DNA of 37,859 nucleotides. Source: Chloroflexota bacterium (GTDB lineage Bacteria; Chloroflexota; Dormibacteria; CF-121). The notes below the pieces were generated by a model. That model ran no database searches and was not told where the DNA came from. It saw nothing but the letters and a program-made list of their open reading frames with translations. The translations under genes and the position numbers were made by a program. The stretch is taken from positions 1 to 37,859 of the forward strand of contig VBEN01000113.1 in assembly GCA_005881175.1 (NCBI GenBank). The letters run 5' to 3'. Each line of letters starts with the position of its first letter. Within the stretch, counting starts at the first letter, position 1. Shown here piece by piece: positions 1,848-4,238 of the stretch.

Positions 1848-2996
1848 TCAAAAGCCACGCGTCAGCCGCCAGCCGAGATCAGGGCCGTTGATAGCGACGG
1901 CGGTGACCAGTGGCACCTCGGCCTGGTGGTTTTGGGCCGCGATCACCAGCGTGCCGGCGCGCGAGCCTGCCGGCATGGTCGCCGGAAGGCTGGTCAACAC
2001 GACGCGGCGCGAGATCGTCGTGCCATCGATCAGCACCCAGGCCACGGACTGACTGGCAACGACCGTGCCTGATTCGGCCCAGCCCGTCTGATAGCGCGCG
2101 ATCACGTCGTTGCGCTGGACGACCTTTCGAAGGTGGAGCGCTGGTCCGAGCGCGTGGAGCAGGGCCGTGGTCGCGGCAAACGCGCCGTTGAGCGCACCAG
2201 GCTGGCCCATCACCGCGCCGTAGACCCGTACCGATTGACCGTCGATCACCAGGTCGGCTGCCACGACGAAGCAGCCGCCGGCCTGGTCGGTGTGACCGGT
2301 CTTGACTCCCACCACTCCACCCTTACCAAGCAGGGCATCGAGGTTATGGATGAGACCGTTTACCGGCAGGCTGGCCTGCGGTTGGGCCACGATTTGCGCA
2401 AAGACCGGCAGCCGCATGGCGGTCTGCGCCAGGGCGATCAGGTCCGAAGGGATGCTCACACTCAGCGGTGAGAAGCCGCTCACATCGGCGTAGTGGGTCG
2501 CGCTCATCCCGAGCGACGCGGCGCGGGCGTTCATCCGGTTGACAAAGGCGGGCACGCCGCCCAGATCCCAGATGGCCAACATGTCCGCGAAGTTGCTGGC
2601 CGAGGGCAGCAGGAGACCCTGCAGCAACTGATATTCCGTGAGGTGCTCACCGGCAACCACCGGCAGCACCGATTTCCCCTGGTTTTGCTGAGAGATATAG
2701 GTCGAAACGTCGGCCCGCGACACCGTGATCACCGGGCCCGGATCATTCAGCGCGAGTGGATGGTCCTCCAGGACGATCAAGGCCGTCATCATCTTTGCCG
2801 TGCTCGCCATCGGCAGCGGCGCTGCCCCGCCGGAGCTTCCGACCTGGCCGAGGCCATCGATGACGAGCGCTGCCGCGCCATGCGAGGGCCAGGGCAACGC
2901 GGGCGCTGTGCCGAAGGCTTGCGCAACGGGGACGATCGATGTGGCAGCGGTCACCGGCAGCGGGCGGAGGTATTGAAATGCCGCGGCCGCCAGCAC
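1848..2996 (-). CDS. D-alanyl-D-alanine carboxypeptidase family protein (serine-type)
   Basis: STAK motif (MASTAKMMTALIVLE), SAS N motif (PSASNFADMLA), KTGHTDQAGGC, and an N-terminal hydrophobic segment. Confidence 0.88.
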   Translation of the reverse strand: MLAAAAFQYLRPLPVTAATSIVPVAQAFGTAPALPWPSHGAAALVIDGLGQVGSSGGAAPLPMASTAKMMTALIVLEDHPLALNDPGPVITVSRADVSTYISQQNQGKSVLPVVAGEHLTEYQLLQGLLLPSASNFADMLAIWDLGGVPAFVNRMNARAASLGMSATHYADVSGFSPLSVSIPSDLIALAQTAMRLPVFAQIVAQPQASLPVNGLIHNLDALLGKGGVVGVKTGHTDQAGGCFVVAADLVIDGQSVRVYGAVMGQPGALNGAFAATTALLHALGPALHLRKVVQRNDVIARYQTGWAESGTVVASQSVAWVLIDGTTISRRVVLTSLPATMPAGSRAGTLVIAAQNHQAEVPLVTAVAINGPDLGWRLTRGF

Positions 2997-3036: not shown

Positions 3037-3306
3037 CTAACGCCAGTCGAGGGCGGGGCCGAGCGTGGGCTCCGCGAGCTTGATGATTTCGCCTGGATGC
3101 GGAAAGCGTCGCAGCTTCGCCTTGCTGAAGATCAACCGGTCGTCCAGCGTAACTTCGAAACGACCCTTGCTCCCCGAGCGCAAGGAAACCTCGACCATGA
3201 TGGGCGCCCAGGCTCCCAGGATCTCAGCCGCCAGGCCGACCGCCTGGTCCAGGTAGTTTCAGGGGACGCAGAACTCAATCGTGACGTGGTGCTTAGGATC
3301 AAGCAT
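3037..3306 (-). CDS. SelT/SelW/SelH (Rdx) family selenoprotein candidate with in-frame TGA read as Sec
   Basis: Reading through one TGA (minus 3261-3259): MLDPKHHVTIEFCVPUNYLDQAVGLAAEILGAWAPIMVEVSLRSGSKGRFEVTLDDRLIFSKAKLRRFPHPGEIIKLAEPTLGPALDWR*. Rdx-typical IE(Y/F)CVPx, FEV..DD.LIFSK and RFP.PGEI. TGA falls at the CxxC/U position. Confidence 0.8.
3231..3247 (-). promoter_or_regulatory. Candidate bacterial SECIS hairpin
   Basis: After TGA: AACUACCUGGA-CCAGGC-GGUCG-GCCUGG. Perfect 6-bp stem, 5-nt loop beginning GG, loop starting 18 nt after the UGA. Confidence 0.55.
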
Positions 3307-3351: not shown

Positions 3352-4238
3352 TCAGGCGATGGGCGCGGGGCTTGCGGCTGGTCCCGCCAGGGCGCGAACC
3401 AGCCGTTCGGCGGGAGCGCTGATGCCATAGGTCTCGCTCAAGGCAGCCAATCGCTGGGGGTCGCGAGGCTTTGCGGCCGCGTTCCTTTCGGCGTTTCCAC
3501 GCGTGCAATGCTGACCGGGACGCCCACCCGGCGCGCCTGCTGGACGTAGGCGTTGCCCGCTTCGCCGAGGCGACCGCTGGCGATGATCCCATCCAGGTCC
3601 TTGTAGCGGCGCACGAGTTGGGCGGCCGTCTTCTCCCCTACGCCGGGCACGCCGGGGAGCCCGTCGGAAGGGTCGCCGCGAAGGACCGCAAAGTCGCCAT
3701 ACGACCGGCCCGGGATCGCGTAGCGTCGCTCGACCTCGGCCTCGTCGACTACCAGAAGCCGGCCGATACCCTGCTGGGTGTACAGGACGCAAACATCGGG
3801 GTCGTGCACCAGAGCGAACAGATCGCGATCGCCGGTGACAATCTCGACCTTGCCCCGGATCTTCGGCAGCAAGGAGGCGATCACGTCCTCCGCCTCGAAT
3901 CCTTCGGCGCCGATCACCTCGACGCCGATCGCCGCGAGGACCTCTCGGATGATCGGCTCCTGGGGCTCCAGTTCTGGAGGCATGGCGCCGCGTTCCAAGC
4001 GGGCTGTCTTGTAGCTGGGGATGACGTCGACGCGGAATGCCGGCCGCCAATCTTCATCCGTCGCCACCACGATGGCGCGGGGCTTCCGGTCCGTGATCAA
4101 CCGGGCGAGCATGTCCAGGAAACCCCGGACGGCGTTCACCGGCTGACCATCCGGCGCCTTGAAAGCGCCGACCGGGATGCCGAAGAAGGCACGGAACATC
4201 ACGCTCGACCCGTCGATCAGCATCCAATCCGCGGGCAT
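3352..4238 (-). CDS. Stand-alone 5'-3' exonuclease (FEN / Pol I N-terminal type), frameshifted near the C-terminus
   Basis: MLIDGSSVMFRAFFG, GFEAEDVIAS, VTGDRDLFAL and RGDPSDGLPGVPGVGEKTAAQLV in ORF 3438-4238. The natural C-terminus (KPRDPQRLAALSETYGISAPAERLVRALA) lies in another frame, ending at 3352. Confidence 0.85.

Follow-up and report, generated by a model that had tools for sequence, protein, structure and literature searches.

A predicted SelW-like selenoprotein gene with a conserved in-frame UGA in a soil Chloroflexota bacterium

The minus strand of the window (the whole 37,859-nt stretch of DNA analysed here, from a soil Chloroflexota bacterium) carries a gene of the Rdx (SelT/W/H) family interrupted by one in-frame TGA and flanked on both sides by genes of the same orientation. 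The features of the locus are as follows.

3037..3306, minus strand: SelW-like (Rdx family) gene for a putative selenoprotein of 89 residues including Sec16, assigned from the frame, Pfam/NCBIfam matches and homologs
3259..3261, minus strand: in-frame TGA, codon 16, predicted selenocysteine (Sec) codon U16 of the motif C13-V-P-U16
3268..3270, minus strand: TGC codon for Cys13 of the CxxU motif, an invariant column in 53 homologs
3037-3039, minus strand: stop codon TAG of the SelW-like gene
1848..2996, minus strand: D-Ala-D-Ala carboxypeptidase-like gene (Peptidase S11), downstream neighbour after a gap of about 40 nt
3438..4238, minus strand: stand-alone 5'-3' exonuclease gene (PolA N-terminal type), upstream neighbour

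The earlier note had described a frame running from an ATG at 3306 through a single TGA at 3259-3261 to a TAG, and the sequence reads exactly so: minus-strand translation of 3037-3306 gives MLDPKHHVTIEFCVP-U-NYLDQAVGLAAEILGAWAPIMVEVSLRSGSKGRFEVTLDDRLIFSKAKLRRFPHPGEIIKLAEPTLGPALDWR-stop, with the TGA of codon 16 as sole internal stop. The ATG at window position 3306 opens a product whose N-terminus is MLDPKHHVTIEFCVPU, and this start codon is backed by two relatives (L006 and L012) in which the frame is closed one codon upstream. It had also been claimed that no open reading frame in the supplied track covers the gene; indeed, no ordinary one of at least 100 aa was found in its frame over 3037-3306. 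Because the predicted active-site selenocysteine is written as the stop codon TGA, ordinary gene finders miss such a gene, which makes it a clean example of what stop-codon-based annotation would be expected to overlook, and the word 'hidden' used for it is fair. A profile search of the whole genome returned 3037-3306 as the sole Rdx place, with '1 TGA' inside. Besides this gene, a scan of the window for further CxxU or UxxC read-through frames yielded, on inspection, chance-like frames only, and Rfam at gathering thresholds gave no match in the whole window.

The order 5'-3' exonuclease, selW, S11 D-Ala-D-Ala carboxypeptidase is kept within the genus, and the S11 gene (1848..2996) is possibly co-transcribed with the SelW-like gene. 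The proximity of selW and S11 is synteny and no proof of a functional link. A lineage-specific role that would link the class's SelW-like selenoprotein to its S11 neighbour, such as redox support of the cell envelope, strikes us as very unlikely; were it true, bacterial SelW would gain a defined partner. As a separate observation, an S11 gene lies beside or near selW in four genomes of family f3 (L017, L019, L020 and L028), upstream in f3 and downstream in f1.

Assignment to the Rdx family agrees with what had been proposed from the letters alone. PF10262 (named PF05169 in older papers) matches the 89-residue product with 66.7 bits against a cut-off of 22.6 (E=2e-18) over residues 7-77, on both sides of the TGA, and TIGR02174 (CXXU_selWTH) with 56.7 bits against 34.2. 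Since the Pfam match spans the TGA and the genome holds no other such place, the frame is not a product of chance. The best NCBIfam E-value came from NF041051 (SelTWH_Campy; 78.1 bits, residues 8-77), which lies under the model's cut-off of 88, and membership of that equivalog was rejected. The CxxU motif, C13-V-P-U16, stands at the N-terminal end of the domain, and both of its redox columns are invariant across the 53 homologs when U is written as C. An AlphaFold2 model of the product reached a pLDDT of 95.9, and the top Foldseek matches to the predicted fold are the SelW-related structures 2fa8 (E 2e-8, TM 0.85), 2obk, 3dex and 2p0g (TM 0.80-0.85), with mouse SelW (2npb) at TM 0.63. Sequence matches to solved Rdx structures (2fa8, 3dex, 2obk, 2oka and 2p0g) range from E 4e-10 to 4e-3; 3dex (SAV_2001) and 2fa8 (Atu0228) have Cys where the window protein has the predicted Sec. 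The sequence matches identify 3037-3306 as the gene of a SelW-like Rdx protein, and its modelled product has a thioredoxin-like fold of the SelW type.

Homologs were sought in the window's own genome and in 100 relatives, 101 genomes in all. The SelW-like gene is present in 37 of these, which are separate genomes and not all separate projects (several are metagenome-assembled genomes, MAGs, from one soil study), and each copy has exactly one internal stop, always TGA. Identity of the relatives' homologs runs from 92% down to 44%. All 34 copies of the class with sequence read have CVPU, and within the class as sampled SelW-like genes occur in the Sec form only. Of 400 genomes from the wider phylum, 185 contained an Rdx gene, in some cases with one TGA and in others without any; a UGA is present in many of the Rdx genes detected there. 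In seven Rdx homologs without TGA from elsewhere in the phylum the Sec column is occupied by a Cys codon, in agreement with the proposal that the TGA occupies the second redox position. For the 73 codons after the TGA, comparison of the window copy with 11 congener copies gave dN/dS of 0.07-0.15, which points to strong purifying selection on this region. A general test revealed no significant excess of synonymous-codon conservation past the UGA (p=0.17). At Leu codon 9, 31 of 31 copies use CTG; other codons of the gene have a similar codon bias, so no weight is placed on this.

A lone in-frame stop in an intact gene does resemble a recent nonsense mutation or a base error, and the TGA could on that ground be taken as a true stop in a decayed CxxC Rdx pseudogene or as a sequencing error; however, 37 separate genomes, with identities as low as 44%, have the TGA at this very codon, the stop is always UGA and never UAA or UAG, the codons after it evolve at the low dN/dS given above, and a covarying hairpin described below lies just past the UGA in UGA genes and is absent from Cys homologs. 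Because the TGA is kept across homologs and selection persists beyond it, a recent mutation or base error is untenable, the pseudogene or error reading is refuted in practice, and we assign it next to no probability. Degraded frames in close relatives, which had been named as a possible counter-sign, were not seen: the relatives' frames are intact, under selection and carry the same TGA.

The preferred reading, selenocysteine at UGA-16, calls for a decoding machinery in the host. The window's genome (G000) is a MAG of 246 contigs that is 89% complete. In it selA and selB are adjacent (G000:C49:18801-22027), and selD lies on the same contig (G000:C49:69689-70618; L148) with a UGA of its own in the motif HGAGUACK. 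The selD TGA is common to most relatives of families f1 and f3 and absent from the full selD matches of f2 and f4. Two Fdh-alpha-type genes also have UGA at the Sec site, within ARVUHG and ARIUHS:

G000:C235:6160-6954 and G000:C197:5897-6637: Fdh-alpha-type UGA genes (L152, L153)

No tRNA-Sec gene (selC) scored above threshold in this 89% complete, 246-contig assembly; a 95-nt tRNA-Sec-like match on G000:C123 was rejected, being a tRNA-Ser(GCT). A tRNA-Sec with anticodon UCA was found in 11 relatives (9 of 14 congeners and two other members of the family). In one relative (G014) the stretch upstream of selC aligns to contig C40 of G000, and since that syntenic contig ends about 1.7 kb before the expected position of selC, the absence is likely an assembly gap. 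The machinery foreseen in the earlier note is therefore seen in this genome as far as selA, selB and selD are concerned, and its selC part in close relatives and not in this MAG. UGA-Rdx occurs together with selA in 36 of 37 genomes, and the exception is just 71% complete.

That a frame stays open across a UGA does not in itself tell which residue is inserted, and another amino acid might enter through genome-wide reassignment (to Trp, Gly or Cys) or near-cognate readthrough. Yet neighbouring genes stop normally at TGA, as does the exonuclease gene ending at 3438, and the UGA genes examined belong to known Sec families (SelW, SelD and Fdh-alpha) with UGA at catalytic positions. Together with selA, selB and selD in the genome, tRNA-Sec in its relatives and a SECIS-type element after the UGA, this leaves insertion of a residue other than selenocysteine highly improbable.

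Two hairpins downstream of the UGA come into consideration as the SECIS element.

3226..3244, minus strand: SECIS-type hairpin, stem GGC.GUC / GGC.GCU with one G-G mismatch, 5-nt loop GGCCU (3233-3237)
3216..3247, minus strand: alternative hairpin of the window copy, loop UGGC, 6-bp upper stem, -17.5 kcal/mol

The first is the window copy's form of a hairpin common to the gene family, which lies within the coding sequence and starts some 16 nt past the UGA, with its loop starting 21 nt after the UGA. Covariation was assessed in an alignment of 32 UGA Rdx genes, gap-free from the UGA, which came from this family, from other Chloroflexota and from a few MAGs whose labels place them in other phyla. 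A 5-bp stem joins columns 20-24 with 30-34 (T of TGA = 1; 3238-3242 and 3228-3232 in the window copy) and encloses a 5-nt loop. Its positions pair in 95.6% of cells, and in four of its five pairs both partners have changed (C-G/G-C, G-C/A-U, C-G/U-A). This stem has a covariation score of 0.386; shuffled alignments gave 0.195+-0.027, none of 500 reaching the observed value, and sliding the partner gave no more than 0.118. These controls somewhat favour the stem, since it was first spotted when the genes were folded singly and since f3 sequences lacking it were excluded. RNAalifold, with the structure not supplied, predicted four of the five pairs from the 32 genes. The complete stem forms in 22 of 28 UGA genes outside the class against 4.3 expected from synonymous redraws with amino acids fixed (maximum of 500, 10), and the Cys homologs form one to three of the five pairs. 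When the data were restricted to the class (RNAalifold) or to close relatives (pair counts), the signal did not rise above that of shuffled sequences, probably because these sequences are too similar.

Published criteria for bacterial SECIS elements are a loop of 3-9 nt, an upper stem of 4-16 bp and a G in the first two loop positions, at 16-37 nt from the UGA and with an MFE of -7.5 or lower (PMC13188914). The gene family fits the published model by its covarying stem and the 5-nt loop at 21 nt. The window copy's loop opens with GG, as in most congeners; its own family hairpin is weak (-6.2 kcal/mol), and RNAfold prefers a different one. The alternative at 3216-3247 agrees with the published model on every point. 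SelB might then make the selenoprotein here through that hairpin or another fold, as the mismatched, weak family hairpin and the different register in family f3 would suggest, but in most congeners (and in their consensus fold) the family stem persists with a GGUCU loop, and the two Fdh-alpha genes of G000 carry comparable structures, a 6-bp stem with a GGUCU loop soon after the UGA in the one on C197 and, at an equivalent place in the other, a stem that encloses an AGUUU loop region. We consider use of another element rather unlikely, at an appreciable probability, and it contests one step and not the whole explanation. The GGUCU of the congeners' SelW genes and of one Fdh-alpha gene of G000 is likened to the small G-rich loop AGGUCU downstream of the UGA in the SECIS of E. 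coli fdhF, from which it differs in lying one codon further downstream; no descent is claimed. The sequences of family f3 form the family stem no better than their synonymous redraws do. In f3 (L017-L031, L060-L068) the hairpin that follows the UGA seems to have changed register, with GGCC/GGCC around GUGAGCCU, and the SECIS element itself seems to have changed in that family.

The computation covers the gene, the conserved UGA, selection, the machinery (with selC in relatives only), the family hairpin and the fold. On this basis we consider it highly probable that the locus is a functional SelW-like (Rdx) selenoprotein gene of a soil Chloroflexota bacterium, in which UGA-16 encodes selenocysteine. 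SelA, SelB and SelD of the host, with a tRNA-Sec(UCA) seen so far in relatives, would decode the UGA, and SelB would be recruited by the intragenic hairpin that starts about 16 nt past it. The 89-residue thioredoxin-like product, to judge from family and fold, would act in thiol/selenol redox reactions through the pair Cys13-x-x-Sec16, most likely by disulfide or selenenylsulfide exchange with a thiol partner. We infer these decoding steps from genome sequence, which agrees with them at every point tested, and the reading of UGA as selenocysteine in the earlier note finds support in every computational check that it had proposed, for selC through the close relatives.

SelW-like proteins are a standard bacterial selenoprotein family (PMC1794560, PMC2398784, PMC1088965) and among the commonest, with 427 sequences in the Global Ocean Sampling metagenomes (PMC2398784); the CxxU motif and the bacterial SECIS have already been described (PMC1088965). 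The present protein resembles the bacterial members of PF10262/TIGR02174 in size, in its CxxU near the N-terminus after the first strand and in its predicted thioredoxin-like fold, and its gene resembles theirs in the SECIS-type hairpin after the UGA and the Sec machinery of the host (PMC1794560; PMC2398784; PMC1088965). It differs in its host, a soil Chloroflexota lineage; a partial search of the literature found no mention of SelW-like proteins in Chloroflexota. A UGA-bearing TIGR02174 member is no surprise, and we regard it as a sound find in a known family, of modest novelty. With it the distribution of SelW-like proteins extends to a soil Chloroflexota lineage, and an alignment becomes available in which the SECIS hairpin is visible by covariation.

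Two minor observations concern further Rdx genes. MAGs labelled Nitriliruptorales and Acidimicrobiales (L083 and L084) carry the UGA gene at 56% identity with the same GGUCU loop, possibly through horizontal transfer or mis-binning. One congener (L147, G005:C134:2770-2970) has a second, divergent Rdx gene with a CNSU motif.
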